From Rhodobium gokarnense (GTDB taxonomy: Bacteria > Pseudomonadota > Alphaproteobacteria > Rhizobiales > Rhodobiaceae): DNA of 64,000 nucleotides. Under the pieces are notes generated by a model that was given only the letters and a program-made list of their open reading frames with translations, was not told the DNA's origin and did not search any database. Where the stretch lies: assembly GCF_025961475.1 (NCBI RefSeq), contig NZ_JAOQNS010000008.1, forward strand, positions 1 to 64,000, in the 5' to 3' direction. The translations under genes and the position numbers were made by a program. Numbering within the stretch: the first letter of the stretch is position 1; each line of letters begins with the position of its first letter. Below are positions 40,861 through 47,599 of the stretch, in pieces.

Positions 40861-43458
40861 GTGCGAAACGACCGGCAGGACCGCGGGGACGCAGCGGACC
40901 GCAACGCCAAGGGCTCCTCCAAAGGCTTCTGGCGGACGGTCCTCGGCACCGGCCTTGAGGACCGCATCGCCGGCGCCGTCTGGCGCGCCCGGGCGGCGCT
41001 GTTCTGGGAAGAGGCCTGGCCGCGCCTTGCCCATCTCCTTGCCGTCGTTGCCCTCTTCCTCTCCCTTTCCTGGCTCGGGCTCTGGCTGGTCGTGCCCGAC
41101 TGGCTGCGCTTTGCCCTTCTCGGCGTCTTTGCCGGCGCCGCCGTCTTCACGCTCTGGCGCCTTGCGCAATTGCGTTGGCCGGACCGGGCCGCCGGCCTGT
41201 CCCGCGTCGAACGCCATTCCGGCCTCCTCCACCGCCCGGTCACGGCCGTCACCGACGACCTCGCTTCCGGCAAGCGCGACGCGGCGAGCCGCGCGCTCTG
41301 GGAGCTGCACCAGAAGCGCGCCGCAGAGCGCCTGAAGAAGATCGCCGCCGGCCTGCCCGCGCCGAAGCTCTACCGCACCGACCCCTATGCACTCCGGGTC
41401 CTCGTCGCCGCCCTCTTCGTCATCGGCTTCAGCGTTGCCGGAACCGACCGCACGGCCCGGCTTTCCGGCGCCTTCACCCCGCCTGCCGAAGAGCCCGGCG
41501 CGGGCTACCGGCTCGACGCCTGGATCGATCCGCCGACCTACACCTCCCGGGTGCCGATTTTTCTCACCCGCGAGGAGACGCCGGCCCGCGACCCCGACAA
41601 GCCCATCGCCGTGCCGGCCACCAGCCGCTTCGTCGCCCGCATCCAGGGCGAGGGCGACTTCGCCGTCTCCTTCACCGCCGACGGCGAGACCACCGACCTT
41701 GCGCCTGCCGGCGACGAGGCCGCACCGTCAGCGTCCGATGCCCCGGCAAGGCCGGCCGAATTCCAGTTCGAACTGACCAGAAACGGCACCATCACCGTGC
41801 GCGACGGCGAGACCGAGCGCGCCGCATGGACCTTCGCCGTCGAACCCGACGCCAGGCCCGAGATCAAGCTCACCAAGGACATGGAAACGACCGTCTCGCG
41901 GGCGATGAAGCTGACCTACGAGGCCACCGACGACTATGGCGTGGTCGGCGCCGAGGCGACCTTCGCGCCCGCCCCTGACGTCGATGCAAAGGGCGCACAG
42001 GCGGTGGGCGACAAGGCCGAGGATACTGCCGCCCGCGAGCCGCTGATTCCGGCGCCGAAATTCCCGCTCGTCCTCTCCCAGCGCGGCGGCCGCAAGGTCG
42101 GCGGCGAGACCATCCGCGACCTCACCGCCCATCCCTGGGCCGGCAGCGAAGTCCTGATGACGCTGACCGCCCGCGACGTCGCCGGCCAGACAGGCACCAG
42201 CGAACCGGTCCGTATCACCCTGCCTGAGCGTCCCTTCGGCAAGCCGCTCGCCCGCGCCATCGTCGAGCAGCGCCGCATCCTGGCGCTCGACCGCGACAGG
42301 CAGGACGAGGTGGTCGACGCCCTCGACGCGCTGATGATCGCCCCGGAGCGCTTCATCGACAGCGCCTCGGTGTTCCTCGGCATGCGCCTCGCCTACCGCC
42401 GGCTGGTGTCGGCAAAGACCGACGACGCGTTGCGCGACGTCGTCGACCTGATGTGGACGCTGGCGCTCTCCATCGAGGACGGCGAGGTCTCGCTCGCCAT
42501 GCGCAAGCTGCGCGAGGCCAAGGAGCGGCTGGAGCAGGCGCTGGAGAACGGCGCCTCGGACGAGGAGATCGCCAAGCTCACCGAAGAGCTGCGCCAGGCC
42601 ATGAACGAGTTCTTCCAGGCGCTCGCCGAACAGGCAAGGCGCAACCCCCAGGCCATGGCGCCGATGGACCCGAACGCGCGCACCCTCAGCCAGGAAGACA
42701 TGCAGCGCATGCTCGACCGCATCGAGGAACTGGCGAAGTCCGGCTCAAGGGACAGCGCCCGGCAACTGCTGTCCCAGATGCAGCAGATGATGGAAAACCT
42801 GCAGACCGGCCGGATGCAGTCGCCGCAGACCGAGGCCGGCCGCGAAATGGCCGAGATGCTGGAACAGCTCGGCGAGATGATCCGCCGCCAGCGCGAGCTG
42901 ATGGAACAGACCCACCGCTTCAACCAGGAGCAGCAGGGTGAGGGCGAGCAGCAGGACGGCCAGCAGGGCCAGAACGGCGAGCGCCAGCAGCAGCAGGGAC
43001 AATTGCAGCAGGGCCAGGGCGACCTGCAGCGCCAGCTTCAGGAAATGATGAAGCGGCTGCAGGAACTCGGCATGCAGCCTGGCCAGCAGCTCGGCGAGGC
43101 GGAAGGCTTCATGGGCGATGCCGGGCGCCAGCTCGGCGAAGGCCAGTCCGGCGATGCCGTCGGCAGCCAGGGCAATGCGCTGAACGCGCTGCGCGAAGGC
43201 GCCGACCAGATGATCGAGCAGATGATGTCCCAGGGCCGCGGCCAGGGGCCGCGCATGGGCCGCAATCCCAACAACGATCCGCTCGGCCGGCCGCGCCAGA
43301 CCGATGGTCCGAGCTTCGACGACCGCACCAAGATCCCCGGCGAGATCGACGTCCAGGAGGCGCGCAGGATTCTCGAAGAGCTGCGCCGGCGCCTGTCGGA
43401 CCCGAACCGGCCGCGCCTGGAGCTCGACTATCTGGAGCGGTTAATTCCCGGCAACTGA
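40861..43458 (+). CDS. TIGR02302/DUF4175 family membrane protein
   Basis: An 865-residue protein restricted to alphaproteobacteria in my knowledge, function unknown. Two hydrophobic helices near residues 58-105 and one near 175-200 anchor it. A large beta-rich region (about 215-440) follows, then a helical region (about 450-690), and a long Gln/Gly/Met-rich low-complexity stretch (about 690-760). The GTG at 40861 has GGAGG 10 bases upstream. It follows lysA by 143 bases. Its 3' end overlaps that of the convergent response-regulator gene by 18 bases. Confidence 0.9.
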   Translation: MRNDRQDRGDAADRNAKGSSKGFWRTVLGTGLEDRIAGAVWRARAALFWEEAWPRLAHLLAVVALFLSLSWLGLWLVVPDWLRFALLGVFAGAAVFTLWRLAQLRWPDRAAGLSRVERHSGLLHRPVTAVTDDLASGKRDAASRALWELHQKRAAERLKKIAAGLPAPKLYRTDPYALRVLVAALFVIGFSVAGTDRTARLSGAFTPPAEEPGAGYRLDAWIDPPTYTSRVPIFLTREETPARDPDKPIAVPATSRFVARIQGEGDFAVSFTADGETTDLAPAGDEAAPSASDAPARPAEFQFELTRNGTITVRDGETERAAWTFAVEPDARPEIKLTKDMETTVSRAMKLTYEATDDYGVVGAEATFAPAPDVDAKGAQAVGDKAEDTAAREPLIPAPKFPLVLSQRGGRKVGGETIRDLTAHPWAGSEVLMTLTARDVAGQTGTSEPVRITLPERPFGKPLARAIVEQRRILALDRDRQDEVVDALDALMIAPERFIDSASVFLGMRLAYRRLVSAKTDDALRDVVDLMWTLALSIEDGEVSLAMRKLREAKERLEQALENGASDEEIAKLTEELRQAMNEFFQALAEQARRNPQAMAPMDPNARTLSQEDMQRMLDRIEELAKSGSRDSARQLLSQMQQMMENLQTGRMQSPQTEAGREMAEMLEQLGEMIRRQRELMEQTHRFNQEQQGEGEQQDGQQGQNGERQQQQGQLQQGQGDLQRQLQEMMKRLQELGMQPGQQLGEAEGFMGDAGRQLGEGQSGDAVGSQGNALNALREGADQMIEQMMSQGRGQGPRMGRNPNNDPLGRPRQTDGPSFDDRTKIPGEIDVQEARRILEELRRRLSDPNRPRLELDYLERLIPGN

Positions 43459-43839
43459 GGCCATCTGCGGCGCCGACCCGGCCAGCACCCGGCCGACGGC
43501 GGCGCGGATCTCGGCCAGCGAGAACGGCTTGGAGATGACGTCCTCGACCAGTTGGTCGAGCCCGTGCGCCCGCTCGCGCTGGTCGGCAAAGCCGGTCATC
43601 AGGAGGATCGGCATCTTCGGCCAGTCCCGCGCCACGTTGAGCGCCAGCGCGATGCCGTCCATCACCGGCATCTTGATGTCGGAGAGGAGGAGGTCGAAGC
43701 GGCCGTCCTCGGCCAGGAGCACCTCGCTCGCCTCGCCACCGTCGGAGGTCACGGTCACCGTATGTCCGTCCATCTCAAGGGCACGCGCCACGAAGGCGCG
43801 TACCGCATCGTCGTCTTCCGTCAACAGAATACGCGCCAT
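43441..43839 (-). CDS. single-domain response regulator, CpdR-like
   Basis: A 132-residue protein that is one receiver domain with no output domain. The acidic pocket is E8/D9/D10, the phosphoacceptor D54 lies in LLLSDIKMPVMDG, the switch threonine is T82 and the conserved lysine K104 is in SKPF. The N-terminus MARILLTEDDDAVRAF is close to CpdR, the receiver that directs CtrA to ClpXP in alphaproteobacteria. Whether this is CpdR itself or a paralogue cannot be settled here. AAGGAG lies 7 bases before the ATG, which overlaps the hpt stop by one base, so it is cotranscribed with hpt. Confidence 0.88.
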   Translation of the reverse strand: MARILLTEDDDAVRAFVARALEMDGHTVTVTSDGGEASEVLLAEDGRFDLLLSDIKMPVMDGIALALNVARDWPKMPILLMTGFADQRERAHGLDQLVEDVISKPFSLAEIRAAVGRVLAGSAPQMASVAGN

Positions 43840-44420
43840 CACCGTTCTCCTTCTCCGGCCTTTCCGGGAGCGGCCGTCTCTGCATTAGGCGGCTCCCGAA
43901 GCGCCCCGATATAGGGCAGTTGCCGATAGGCATGACCCATGTCGATGCCGAATCCGAAAATGAACCGGTCCGGGCAGTCGAAGCCGACGAAGTCGGCGGC
44001 GATGTCGACCGCCCGCTTGCCGGGCTTGTCCAGAAGGGCAACGACCGCCACCCGCCGCGCCCCGCGCTCCTTGAGCCGGTCGCGGGCGAAGGCAAGGGTG
44101 CGCCCCGATTCCAGGATATCGTCGACGATCAGGATGTCCCGGCCGGCAACGTCCGTGTCGATGTCGCGAAGCACCTCGATGCGGCCGCTCGACGTCGTCC
44201 CGGCGCCGTAGCTCCTGAGCTGCATGAACTCGATCTCGGGTGCCATGCCCATGCGGTGCATGGCCCGCAACAGATCGGCCGCGAACATGAACGAGCCCTT
44301 CAGCACCGCCACGACGAGGAGGTTCTCAAACCCCGTACCGGCGATCTCGCGGGCGAGATCGTCGATCCGCGCCGCGAGCTGCTCTTCGCTGTAGAGGACG
44401 TCGATCTGCGGCTCCGTCAT
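43839..44420 (-). CDS. hpt: hypoxanthine phosphoribosyltransferase
   Basis: A 193-residue purine-salvage enzyme that makes IMP (and probably GMP) from the base and PRPP. The PRPP-binding motif ILIVDDILESGRTL lies at residues 96-109, the flexible loop SYGAGTTSSG at 70-79 and the base-specificity segment VGFDCPDRFIFGFGID further on. It is full length with a short Pro/Glu-rich C-terminal tail. Its start overlaps the zinc-ribbon gene by four bases (ATGA) and its stop overlaps the receiver gene by one. Confidence 0.95.
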   Translation of the reverse strand: MTEPQIDVLYSEEQLAARIDDLAREIAGTGFENLLVVAVLKGSFMFAADLLRAMHRMGMAPEIEFMQLRSYGAGTTSSGRIEVLRDIDTDVAGRDILIVDDILESGRTLAFARDRLKERGARRVAVVALLDKPGKRAVDIAADFVGFDCPDRFIFGFGIDMGHAYRQLPYIGALREPPNAETAAPGKAGEGER

Positions 44421-45673
44421 CTCTGCGCGGTCCTTCCGATCTGCACGTCGGTGAACCGGACCTGCATGCTCTGTGTCTGCAATGGCGGCTCCGTAAGCCG
44501 GCTGGTGAAGGGGATCGTCTCGCCGGCCTGGATGACCGTCTTGTCCGGATCGATGGCCCAGGCGTAGATTTCCTCGCCGCGCTGACCGCGCAGGCCGAAG
44601 CGAATCTTCGGCACCGTGCGCTCGCCATAGGAGACGTTTTCGATCGCGCCCTCGACGATGAGGATCGTGGTGCCCTTGTCGAACTCGCGCGAGACGCGGA
44701 TGTCGCGGAATTCCAGGCCGCGCAGGTTCACCTCGAACCCGATCGCGGCATAGAGCCCGCCGAGATCCGGCACCTTGCGCACGATGTCCTCGCGCTTGAC
44801 GATGAGGGCGACGATGACCGAGACGACGATGACGAAGGAAATGATGCCGCCGAACTTGCCGAATGTGAGCGCCTTGGCAGCCATCGCCGCGCTCGCCCGG
44901 CGCCCCATCTCCCGGCTCCGCTTCAGCCGCGGCCGGCGCCGCGGCTTGGCGAGCGATTCGATGTCGTGCGGCGGCTCTTCCCCGGCGCCCTTTGCCTCGG
45001 CCGGCACCGAGACGCCGGCAAACGGCGCACCGTCCGCCCCGTCCGCCGCATCCTCGCCGGCACCCGGATCGTCGTCGGAGGCCTTGGACGCCTCGTCGAT
45101 GGTCGCCATCAGGGCGGCCATGTCGAGTTCGCCGTCCTCCTCGTCCTCGCCTGCTGCGTCGTCGGCCCCGCCCGGCCCGTCGAACAAGGCGTCGAGACCC
45201 GCCTGGTCCATCTCCGCCGAACCGTCCGCCTGCGCCGGTGCGTCGAACAGCGCATCGAGGTCGTCCTGGTTCATCTCCGCCGAATCATCGCCCGCTGCGT
45301 CGGGCGCCACGGGTTCGTCGAACAGCGCGTCCAGCGCCGCCTGGTCCATCGGCTCGGAGTCAGCGTCATCTCCCGGCCCGTCGAACAGGGCGTCCAGATC
45401 CGCCTGGTTCATCGGTTCTTCCGCGTCCCCTGCCGGAACGTCGTCTTGGGTGGGGGCGGGAACCGGCGGCGCTGTGCGGGCGGCCGGAATCGCGCGGCCT
45501 CCGGCCGCAGCGACCTTGGCCTCCGGCACGGCCACCTCGATGGCCTCCGCCTCTTCCCGGTCGACGCGCCAGATCATGCCGCAGCGATTGCAGCGCACGT
45601 CGCGTCCGTCCGGGCCGACGGCCTCGTCGGGCAGCGAATATGACGTCGCACAGGTCGGACAGGAAATTTTCAT
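44417..45673 (-). CDS. MJ0042-type zinc-ribbon membrane protein with four FliM-like motifs
   Basis: A 418-residue protein. The N-terminal zinc ribbon uses C5/C8 and C28/C31. A long acidic disordered region follows, with four copies of M-[ND]-Q-x-x-L-D-A-L-F-D-x-P at residues 88-100, 109-121, 134-146 and 155-167. A basic patch (243-259) precedes one transmembrane helix (about 275-292), and the C-terminal 120 residues form a beta-rich DUF3426-like domain. The repeats resemble the N-terminal CheY-binding peptide of FliM (LSQAEIDALL). Function is unknown. It is first in an operon with hpt and the CpdR-like receiver and is divergent from ftsEX. Confidence 0.87.
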   Translation of the reverse strand: MKISCPTCATSYSLPDEAVGPDGRDVRCNRCGMIWRVDREEAEAIEVAVPEAKVAAAGGRAIPAARTAPPVPAPTQDDVPAGDAEEPMNQADLDALFDGPGDDADSEPMDQAALDALFDEPVAPDAAGDDSAEMNQDDLDALFDAPAQADGSAEMDQAGLDALFDGPGGADDAAGEDEEDGELDMAALMATIDEASKASDDDPGAGEDAADGADGAPFAGVSVPAEAKGAGEEPPHDIESLAKPRRRPRLKRSREMGRRASAAMAAKALTFGKFGGIISFVIVVSVIVALIVKREDIVRKVPDLGGLYAAIGFEVNLRGLEFRDIRVSREFDKGTTILIVEGAIENVSYGERTVPKIRFGLRGQRGEEIYAWAIDPDKTVIQAGETIPFTSRLTEPPLQTQSMQVRFTDVQIGRTAQR

Positions 45674-45918: not shown

Positions 45919-46578
45919 GTGATCCGGTTTGAAAATGTCGGCCTCAGATACGGGATGGGCGCGGAGGTGCTGCGCGACGTCACCTTCCATATCGCGCCGA
46001 AATCCCTGCAGTTCCTGACCGGGCCGTCGGGCGCCGGCAAGACCAGCCTGATCCGGCTGATGTTCCTGGCGCTGCGCCCGACCCGCGGCCTGATCACCAT
46101 GTTCGGCCGCGACACCGCGCGCATCCCCAAGAGCGACCTGCCGGCGCTGCGCCGCCGCATCGGCGTCGTCTTCCAGGACTTCCGGCTCCTGGAGCACCTG
46201 ACCACCTACGAGAACGTCGCCCTGCCGCTCCGGGTCACCGGCGTCGACGAGGCGAAATACCGCTCCGACGTGGTCGAACTCTTGAAATGGGTCGGGCTCG
46301 GCGACCGCATGCACGTGCTGCCGCCGGTGCTCTCGGGCGGCGAGAAGCAGCGCGCGGCGATTGCCCGCGCCCTCATCGCCCAGCCGGAGATCCTGCTTGC
46401 CGACGAGCCGACCGGCAATGTCGACCCGCCGCTCGCCCGCCGGCTGCTGCGCCTTTTCACCGAGCTCAACAAGCTCGGCACGTCGGTGGTCATCGCCACC
46501 CACGACATCAACCTGATGAACCAGGTCGATGCCCGCCGCATCGTCCTCCATGACGGACGGCTGGATATCTATGACTGA
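45919..46578 (+). CDS. ftsE: cell division ATP-binding protein FtsE
   Basis: A 219-residue ABC ATPase that with FtsX forms a divisome complex activating peptidoglycan hydrolases. Walker A is GPSGAGKTS at residues 35-43, the signature LSGGEKQRAAIARAL and Walker B ILLADEPTGNVDP follow, with the switch histidine in IATHDI. The GTG start at 45919 has GAGGAG 9 bases upstream. Its end overlaps ftsX by eight bases. Confidence 0.95.
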   Translation: MIRFENVGLRYGMGAEVLRDVTFHIAPKSLQFLTGPSGAGKTSLIRLMFLALRPTRGLITMFGRDTARIPKSDLPALRRRIGVVFQDFRLLEHLTTYENVALPLRVTGVDEAKYRSDVVELLKWVGLGDRMHVLPPVLSGGEKQRAAIARALIAQPEILLADEPTGNVDPPLARRLLRLFTELNKLGTSVVIATHDINLMNQVDARRIVLHDGRLDIYD

Positions 46579-47599
46579 CGCCGAGGACAGCGCCCGCGAA
46601 GAGGCGGCCACGCCAGAGCCGGAGAAAAAGAGCACCGGCCCCGCGCCCAGGCGGCGCGGCATGCGCGAGCGCGTGAAGAAAAAGAAGCGGGCGCCGGAAT
46701 TCCGCGATGCGGCCCCGATCGTGCCGCCGGCGACCGTTGCCGGCAACGCGCTCGCCATCGTCATCGCCATCATGAGCTTCCTGGCCTGCCTCACCATCGG
46801 CGCCGTGACCGTCGTGCACGACGCCTCACGCGACTGGCAGGGCGATATCGCCCGCGAGGTCACGGTCCAGATCCGCCCGGTCGACGGCGTCGACATGACC
46901 TCGCAGATCGAAAAGGCGATCGCGATCGCGGAAGGCACCCCCGGCATCGCCACGGCCCACGCGCTCTCCGACAAGGAGACCAAGGCGCTCCTGGAGCCCT
47001 GGCTCGGCGCCGGGCTCGACCTCGACGCCCTGCCGGTGCCGCGCCTCGTGCGCGTCGAACTCGGCGATCCCGTCGGCGCCGACATCCCCGGCCTCAAGAA
47101 GGCAATCGCCGACAGCGTCCCCGGCGGCAGCCTCGACGACCATTCCGCCTGGACGCGGCAACTGACGGCAATGGCCCAGACCATGGTCATCGGCGGCTTC
47201 GTCATTCTCGGCCTCGTGCTGACGGCGATGGTCCTCAGCGTCGTCTTCGCCACCCGCGCCGCCATGGCCGGCAACCGCGACGTCATCGAGGTGCTCCACC
47301 TCGTCGGCGCCGAGGACGGCTTCATCGCCGGCGAGTTCCAGCGCCATTTCCTCCTCCTCGGCCTGAAGGGCGGGGCGGCCGGCGGCGCCGCGGCCATCGT
47401 CACCTTCGCCGCCGTGACCCTCGCCCGCCGCCAGGCACCCGGCACGGCCGCCTTCGACCAGCTCGAGGCGCTGCTCGGCCAGACCGGCATCGGCGCCCTC
47501 GGCTATGTCGCAGCGCTCGGCGTCGTCTTCGTCGTCGCCATCCTCACAGCGCTCACCTCGCGGCTGGCGGTGCGGCGCACGCTTGGCGCCATGGAGTGA
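46571..47599 (+). CDS. ftsX: cell division protein FtsX
   Basis: A 342-residue inner-membrane protein, the partner of FtsE. A long basic cytoplasmic N-terminus (about 55 residues, many Lys/Arg) precedes the first helix, followed by a periplasmic domain (about 85-200) that in relatives binds hydrolase activators, and three more helices towards the C-terminus. The ATG at 46571 lies within the last codons of ftsE, which implies translational coupling. Confidence 0.93.
   Translation: MTDAEDSAREEAATPEPEKKSTGPAPRRRGMRERVKKKKRAPEFRDAAPIVPPATVAGNALAIVIAIMSFLACLTIGAVTVVHDASRDWQGDIAREVTVQIRPVDGVDMTSQIEKAIAIAEGTPGIATAHALSDKETKALLEPWLGAGLDLDALPVPRLVRVELGDPVGADIPGLKKAIADSVPGGSLDDHSAWTRQLTAMAQTMVIGGFVILGLVLTAMVLSVVFATRAAMAGNRDVIEVLHLVGAEDGFIAGEFQRHFLLLGLKGGAAGGAAAIVTFAAVTLARRQAPGTAAFDQLEALLGQTGIGALGYVAALGVVFVVAILTALTSRLAVRRTLGAME

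Follow-up and report, generated by a model that had tools for sequence, protein, structure and literature searches.

What do four copies of a FliM-like peptide do in a membrane protein of Rhodobium gokarnense? The window studied here is a stretch of 64,000 nucleotides (contig NZ_JAOQNS010000008.1, positions 1 to 64,000), to which all coordinates refer; its genome is denoted G000. At 44417..45673 on the minus strand it contains an open reading frame of 418 amino acids with the layout of a ZitP-type gene, namely a zinc ribbon, an acidic linker that bears the four docking motifs, a single transmembrane segment and a DUF3426-like C-terminal region. The motif class recurs in PopZ of the same genome, and its presence in the ZitP-like protein and in PopZ hints that a chemotaxis signal protein may dock at the cell pole. 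We give an even chance to the reading that ZitP and PopZ jointly make up a multivalent site at the pole where phosphorylated canonical CheY (CheY~P) docks, a site that would rival FliM and CheZ for this client. The new content is the ZitP-type identity of the protein and a motif common to PopZ and CheZ.

Four constrained motifs in the linker

The four motifs followed the pattern M[ND]QxxLDALFD on the minus strand: MNQADLDALFD (residues 88-98, 45380..45412), MDQAALDALFD (residues 109-119, 45317..45349), MNQDDLDALFD (residues 134-144, 45242..45274), and MDQAGLDALFD (residues 155-165, 45179..45211). An earlier note on this DNA had read four FliM-like motifs in a zinc-ribbon membrane protein, and this was confirmed for residues 88-165. 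In 200,000 shuffles of the linker, the pattern Q..[LIVM]DAL[FL] occurred as a single copy in 24 and never more often, compared with four copies observed.

Against the close relative G001, amino-acid changes were found in 1 of the 44 motif codons and in 11 of the 40 codons of the inter-motif spacers (Fisher p 0.0011). The zinc ribbon showed none in 40 codons, and the transmembrane plus C-terminal part showed 8 in 158. Synonymous changes were present in motifs, spacers, zinc ribbon, and transmembrane plus C-terminal part alike. By these counts the motifs are under purifying selection and constrained to the same degree as the folded regions of the protein. The four copies differed from one another by 1-4 synonymous codons, so the array is no fresh duplication.

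The linker is probably on the cytoplasmic side of the membrane. The hydrophobic transmembrane segment (residues 275-293, 44795..44851, minus strand) is preceded by the basic stretch KPRRRPRLKRSR at residues 243-254, from which the positive-inside rule would place the motifs in the cytoplasm. A single-sequence AlphaFold model had a mean predicted local distance difference test (pLDDT) score of 48.8 and a predicted template modelling score of 0.22, and the zinc ribbon alone was modelled well. At low confidence, the model showed a helix at residues 263-297 and short helices at all four motifs.

Two other linker segments were observed. A juxtamembrane DIESLAK (residues 237-243, 44945-44965, minus strand), followed by the basic run, recurs in ZitP-like orthologues with the consensus DIExxA. 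After the array, the segment ELDMAALMATIDEA (residues 182-195, 45089-45130, minus strand) resembles EMDMAAAMAA / ELDMAAAMAA of PopZ in family f44.

The motif as a CheZ-tail/FliM-type peptide

Searched across G000 at the DNA level, Qxx[ILM]DALF[DE] gave six matches, four in the ZitP-type protein and two in PopZ; the reversed control gave none. The pattern CARNNNGAYMTNGAYNNNMTNTTY, written QxD[ILM]Dx[ILM]F, likewise gave six matches and none in the control. On matching strands, these six sites lay in the ZitP-type protein (two of its four motifs), in PopZ (two), and in CheZ-like tails (two). The CheZ-like proteins of G000 showed the C-terminal ends ASQDDIDALFA and SSQNDIDKLFD and an internal HDQDAIDNLFD, and FliM of G000 carries LNQEEIDNLLGF.

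The wider survey covered 249 genomes of one order, probably Hyphomicrobiales, the order of Rhodobium orientis, formerly called Rhizobiales. Within it, the CheZ-like tail ASQDDIDAL aligned with ASQDQVDDL of E. coli CheZ (1kmi, E-value 2e-5). Among the matches listed from elsewhere in the order, many motif-bearing loci were CheZ-like C-terminal tails; others were chance matches in unrelated proteins or frames. A Pfam scan of six proteins from motif-bearing loci identified CheZ in four and PopZ (DUF2497) in one, with no match for the sixth.

The C-terminal region of Azorhizobium CheZ is described as CheY-binding (PMC7750401), and the EIDALL peptide of FliM lies in a groove of CheY helices alpha4 and alpha5 (PMC9126983). 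The window motifs fit the [SN]-Q-x-x-[ILV]-D-x-[LM]-[LF] helix of the FliM/CheZ class, with N before the Q in two copies and D in the other two. This likeness to CheZ tails and FliM makes it well grounded to call the motif a CheZ-tail/FliM-type docking peptide by similarity, which extends the FliM resemblance claimed earlier; CheY would be the expected ligand.

Arrays of related peptides were also visible in other proteins of the order. An extended CheZ-like paralogue, whose acidic tail is also long, has its own QGDIDAMF-type array in L184/L194 (G084, G196) and L268 (G218); the strict pattern gave at least five copies in G084 and at least three in G196, and G218 showed variants. Two small proteins, L199 and L221, end in the motif (QADIDALFD, QADIDAMFD); L221 had no Pfam match, and both suggest further docking tails.

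The zinc ribbon and probable attachment to the pole

The zinc ribbon occupies residues 1-36 (45566..45673, minus strand) with C5, C8, C28, C31, R24, R27, and W35 (Zn_ribbon_4 E-value 1.7e-12; pLDDT about 90). Its best relative of solved structure was 2nb9 (E-value 3.8e-9), deposited as an uncharacterized protein. The aligned 2nb9 sequence carries C5, C8, C28, C31, K18, R24, R27, R34, and W35, and the same nine residues are named for Caulobacter ZitP (PMC5182065). From this match we infer that 2nb9 is ZitP. Over the 49 residues of the 2nb9 chain, on which the comparison with Caulobacter ZitP rests, the window protein shares C5, C8, C28, C31, R24, R27, and W35; in the basic patch, K18 is replaced by A and R34 by I. 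The polar ZitP-PopZ complex of Caulobacter was lost in the W35I, R24A/R27A double, and four-cysteine mutants of ZitP (PMC5182065).

The whole ZitP-type protein had a match in 189 of the 249 genomes, often in the C-terminal part alone. From these, 80 neighbourhoods were fetched; they were hand-chosen, mostly from the better-scoring of the 189, with one or a few per family. A ribbon was recognisable in 78 orthologues, and in the 40 of them that were aligned C5, C8, C28, C31, and W35 were invariant. R/K24, R/K27, and W35 occurred jointly in 67 of the 78; one of the 11 misses, L104, was a numbering offset, as its true ribbon lies 27 residues on. These residues identify the window protein as a polarity protein of the ZitP type. 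Zinc ribbons of this type whose PopZ-binding residues are intact are common in what is probably the order for which ZitP had been reported absent.

PopZ motifs and their association with CheZ

The second motif protein of G000 is PopZ, at L117:1336-2088 (G000:C4). It was recognised by its DUF2497 C-terminal domain (E-value 5.6e-27) and a PopZ-like N-terminal helix, and its disordered middle contains LSQDDLDALFD twice. An S[QE]DDLD[AKR]LF-like motif was found in this disordered middle, downstream of the N-terminal helix, in 36 of the 108 genomes read. These genomes were chosen, not random, in three samples: array genomes plus a spread (50), CheZ-negative genomes (28), and mixed families (30). 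By eye, a D[VI]L[ED]L[ST]-type motif was also recurrent in PopZ.

The PopZ motif was present in 35 of the 74 CheZ-positive genomes read and in 1 of the 34 CheZ-negative genomes read (Fisher p 1.5e-6). PopZ frames lacked the N-terminal helix in 7 CheZ-positive and 10 CheZ-negative genomes, and excluding them gave 34/67 and 1/24, respectively. Three look-alikes fell outside the patterns: S-A-D-D variants in G171 and SEADLDALF in G067, both CheZ-positive, and STEAIDALF in G098, which is CheZ-negative. FliM was found in 7 of the 30 CheZ-negative genomes searched. Among the mixed families, f50 agreed with the link, since G087 has both motif and CheZ, and G051 and G149 have neither. Families f28, f42, f20, f17, f31, f45, f13, and f6 were uninformative because their CheZ-positive members read were also without the PopZ motif. 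The association agrees with a CheY-linked partner and is no proof of one; its use as proof of CheY was dropped, as the contrast lies mostly between families and the signal within families is mixed.

The occurrence of the motif in both ZitP and PopZ would also fit binding to a polar partner that is not a receiver. The ZitP zinc ribbon, in trans or in cis, is one example, with ZitP-ZitP and ZitP-PopZ networking and a convergent likeness to CheZ tails. An acidic-hydrophobic peptide could face the basic patch around W35 that is described for the Caulobacter ZitP zinc ribbon (PMC5182065). However, family f33 has 4-6 motifs although its R24 position is A or T (two rows compared; K comes directly after it), and its PopZ was without the motif in all six genomes read. 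Caulobacter ZitP is reported to target residues that flank the C-terminal domain of PopZ, and CheZ tails, described as CheY-binding, bear the same motif. We consider this explanation unlikely, and it stands first among the alternatives.

Which receiver would dock

Candidate receivers were compared with E. coli CheY at 19 docking-face contact positions from the CheY-FliM structure literature; the E. coli CheY entries 1f4v and 2fmf, 2fmh, 2fmi, and 2fmk are complexes with FliM and CheZ peptides. The CheY of G000 whose gene adjoins cheZ shares 66 of 121 positions with E. coli CheY and has kept Y106, V108, F111, T115, and K119.

Another receiver of the CheY family, such as a second CheY or a Cle-like or DivK-like protein, might bind the motifs instead of CheY encoded beside cheZ. 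The motif class is receiver-binding, and the three CheZ-like proteins of G000 make several CheY-like clients possible. No specific candidate emerged, although no catalogue of G000 receivers was made. This explanation is improbable and follows the zinc-ribbon ligand in our ranking.

The earlier note had favoured the stand-alone receiver encoded at 43441..43839 (minus strand; Response_reg match), in which D54 is present. We call it CpdR-like only, because it scored 99.6 bits with the NCBIfam CpdR equivalog NF046022, below the cut-off of 180. In this explanation, the motifs would dock the CpdR-like receiver and retain this protein, or its protease cargo, at the membrane or the pole. The tight gene overlap and the conserved synteny speak for it, as does Caulobacter CpdR, a receiver that binds PopZ directly (PMC11519897). 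The same source reports that Caulobacter CpdR binds the N-terminal domain of PopZ when unphosphorylated and that phosphorylated CpdR does not, a phospho-dependence opposite to that of the FliM and CheZ peptides.

The docking face of the CpdR-like receiver was poorly kept. In G000 it retains 3 of the 19 positions. At positions 106, 95, 99, and 119 it has V, R, L, and A, and the conserved CheY docking residues (equivalents of Y106, I95, and K119) are thus replaced. Among 65 CpdR-like sequences, V was found at the Y106 position in 58, R at I95 in 62, and A at K119 in 43. Nine CpdR-like proteins from array-bearing loci kept 2-5 of the 19 positions; K at 119 was found in none, and position 106 was V in seven, I in one, and F in one (L078, family f33). 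The array was present in 9 of the 65 neighbourhoods with a cpdR-like gene and missing from the other 56, so the survey of receiver linkage proposed in the earlier note went against its own candidate.

CpdR was rejected as the leading partner on the poor docking face and the array-free cpdR-linked orthologues; the neighbourhood set was hand-chosen, and one of the nine array-linked proteins is aromatic at the Y106 position. On this sequence comparison, CpdR is unlikely to be the ligand relative to canonical CheY. The neighbouring receiver is probably not the partner of the motifs, and docking of CpdR comes after the other CheY-family receivers in our ranking, as a doubtful explanation.

Distribution of the arrays

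At least two motifs were found in ten orthologues among the 80 neighbourhoods (L037, L038, L058, L066, L069, L078, L085, L104, L115, and L116), and L077 showed a single look-alike, NQDDVEALF. Another 11 loci were chosen from array-bearing families, and 10 of them had arrays, the exception being G202. The array families were f1, f44, f33, f51, and f11; copy number ranged from 2 to 9, and the wording differed by family (SQDDIDALF, SQDDIDGLF, DQGAIDDMF, and DQSAIDDLF). The congener G001 has the ZitP motif array; the congener G002 has no ZitP motifs and three PopZ motifs. On the survey of motif number suggested in the earlier note, arrays recurred in five families, copy number varied, and most fetched orthologues had no array.

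A tree was built with a quick method from the 79 fetched neighbourhoods plus the window (963 columns, linker excluded). Arrays occurred in 11 of the 80 rows and required at least five changes, all forced by starred branches; gain and loss could not be distinguished. The rows of f51 and f33 were of unlike letter make-up, and f51 was on a long branch. CheZ and FliM were each present in 14 of 14 array genomes tested, and CheZ also in seven further array genomes; in the order as a whole, CheZ was found in 153 of 249 genomes.

A tandem expansion of low complexity, with no specific ligand, would fit the lineage restriction and the variable copy number of the arrays, but it is very improbable given motif residues that are conserved while spacers change, window copies that differ synonymously, and recurrence of the motif in five families, PopZ, and CheZ-like proteins.

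Proposed role

In the CheY~P dock that we favour, the zinc ribbon would anchor the ZitP-type protein in the polar PopZ matrix; its determinants are visible in the sequence, and binding is expected from Caulobacter ZitP. Between them, the peptides of ZitP and PopZ would offer CheY~P many sites of low affinity, and CheY encoded beside cheZ would be the most likely phosphorylated client. As a speculative last step, the pole, competing with FliM and CheZ, might then hold or buffer CheY~P, or it might bring CheY to polar CheZ. Azorhizobium CheZ stays polar in cheA, cheY1, cheY2, fliM, and fliN mutants (PMC7750401).

A more specific version is tentative, and we hold it to be rather less probable than the dock itself. 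Here ZitP and PopZ would act as a phospho-gated multivalent sink or relay of CheY~P, the polarity matrix would read the chemotaxis signal through the FliM/CheZ peptide, and copy number would be evolutionarily tuned between the two proteins (4 + 2 in G000, 0 + 3 in G002).

Several observations weigh against the CheY~P dock. Of the 19 face positions compared with E. coli CheY, CheY encoded beside cheZ keeps only 8, and N or D precedes the Q in the window motifs, compared with S in most CheZ tails read. The contrast between PopZ motif and CheZ lies mostly between families, and the mixed family f40 disagrees with it, as G144 has the PopZ motif without CheZ. Arrays are absent from most fetched orthologues and from the congener G002, so the function is not general. 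The presence of CheZ in all array genomes is weak evidence, because CheZ is so common in the order and the arrays represent about five lineages. For the ZitP side, no ZitP orthologue is encoded in Rhizobiales according to PMC5182065; orthology, unlike similarity of type, is therefore unproven.

Searches of one paper library on the motif wording and on PopZ with CheY or CheZ gave no publication linking the motif to a receiver, the PopZ ones being judged by title. A search combining two of zinc ribbon, CheY-binding motif, and FliM-like gave only a paper on Helicobacter FliY. A docking peptide common to CheZ, PopZ, and a ZitP-type membrane protein would give chemotaxis signalling a tangible connection to the polarity matrix, one that can be altered by mutation.

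Neighbouring genes and the C-terminal region

The gene hpt for hypoxanthine phosphoribosyltransferase (43839..44420, minus strand; TIGR01203 172.6 bits, cut-off 150) sits between the ZitP-type gene and the CpdR-like receiver gene and goes unmentioned in the earlier note. It overlaps the ZitP-type gene by 4 bp and also overlaps the start of the receiver gene. These overlaps make co-transcription of the three genes likely, in line with the earlier claim of a shared transcript with a lone receiver. That claim also placed the locus opposite ftsEX, and ftsE and ftsX are indeed divergent neighbours at 45919..47599 (plus strand; FtsX Pfam 23.1 bits, just below the cut-off of 25.5) in conserved synteny. 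The gene order ftsX-ftsE / zitP-like - hpt - cpdR-like recurs in the fetched neighbourhoods with some members missing, and the synteny of cpdR with ftsEX is maintained there with or without the motif.

A search of genome contigs for related loci gave one relative, Rhodobium orientis, and the same search gave no related locus in viral contigs. Convergent with the operon is a gene for a DUF4175 protein (40861-43458, plus strand, E-value 1.3e-278), and a DUF4175 match was present in many fetched neighbourhoods.

The C-terminal region (44420..44794, minus strand) is DUF3426-like or FxLYD-like. Its DUF3426 match was weak (E-value 0.091; 13.3 bits compared with a curated cut-off of 27.7), and FxLYD NF038353 gave an E-value of 0.047 with 13.6 bits (cut-off 23). 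DUF3426 was detected at E-value <= 0.01 in 23 of the 40 aligned orthologues.

Comparison with known systems

Caulobacter ZitP (PMC5182065, PMC5182063) is described with the same N-terminal CxxC-x19-CxxC zinc ribbon with R24, R27, and W35, a cytoplasmic linker, one transmembrane segment, and a C-terminal DUF3426-type region, which is weak in the window protein. Compared with it, the linker of the window protein is longer and carries four putative CheY-docking motifs, and the neighbours are ftsEX, hpt, and the cpdR-like gene. GltJ/AgmX of Myxococcus has an N-terminal zinc ribbon of this type (7zok E-value 0.0011; NF033761 24.8 bits, cut-off 450), but AgmX has Ile in place of W35 according to PMC5182065.

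On the motif side, the C-terminal tail of CheZ (E. coli 1kmi; Azorhizobium, PMC7750401) bears an SQxx[IV]D[AD]L-type peptide, which also ends two CheZ-like proteins of G000. In contrast, the window motif is internal and fourfold and sits in a membrane protein that has no CheZ phosphatase domain. The N-terminal CheY-binding peptide of FliM (EIDALL, PMC9126983) is likewise a short helix of the form [SN]Q..[IL]D.L[LF], whereas the window motif ends in LF rather than LL and occurs in multiple copies outside the flagellar switch. PopZ, the polar hub with DUF2497, belongs to another protein family and has no zinc ribbon, yet its disordered middle carries a motif of the same class, in two copies in G000.

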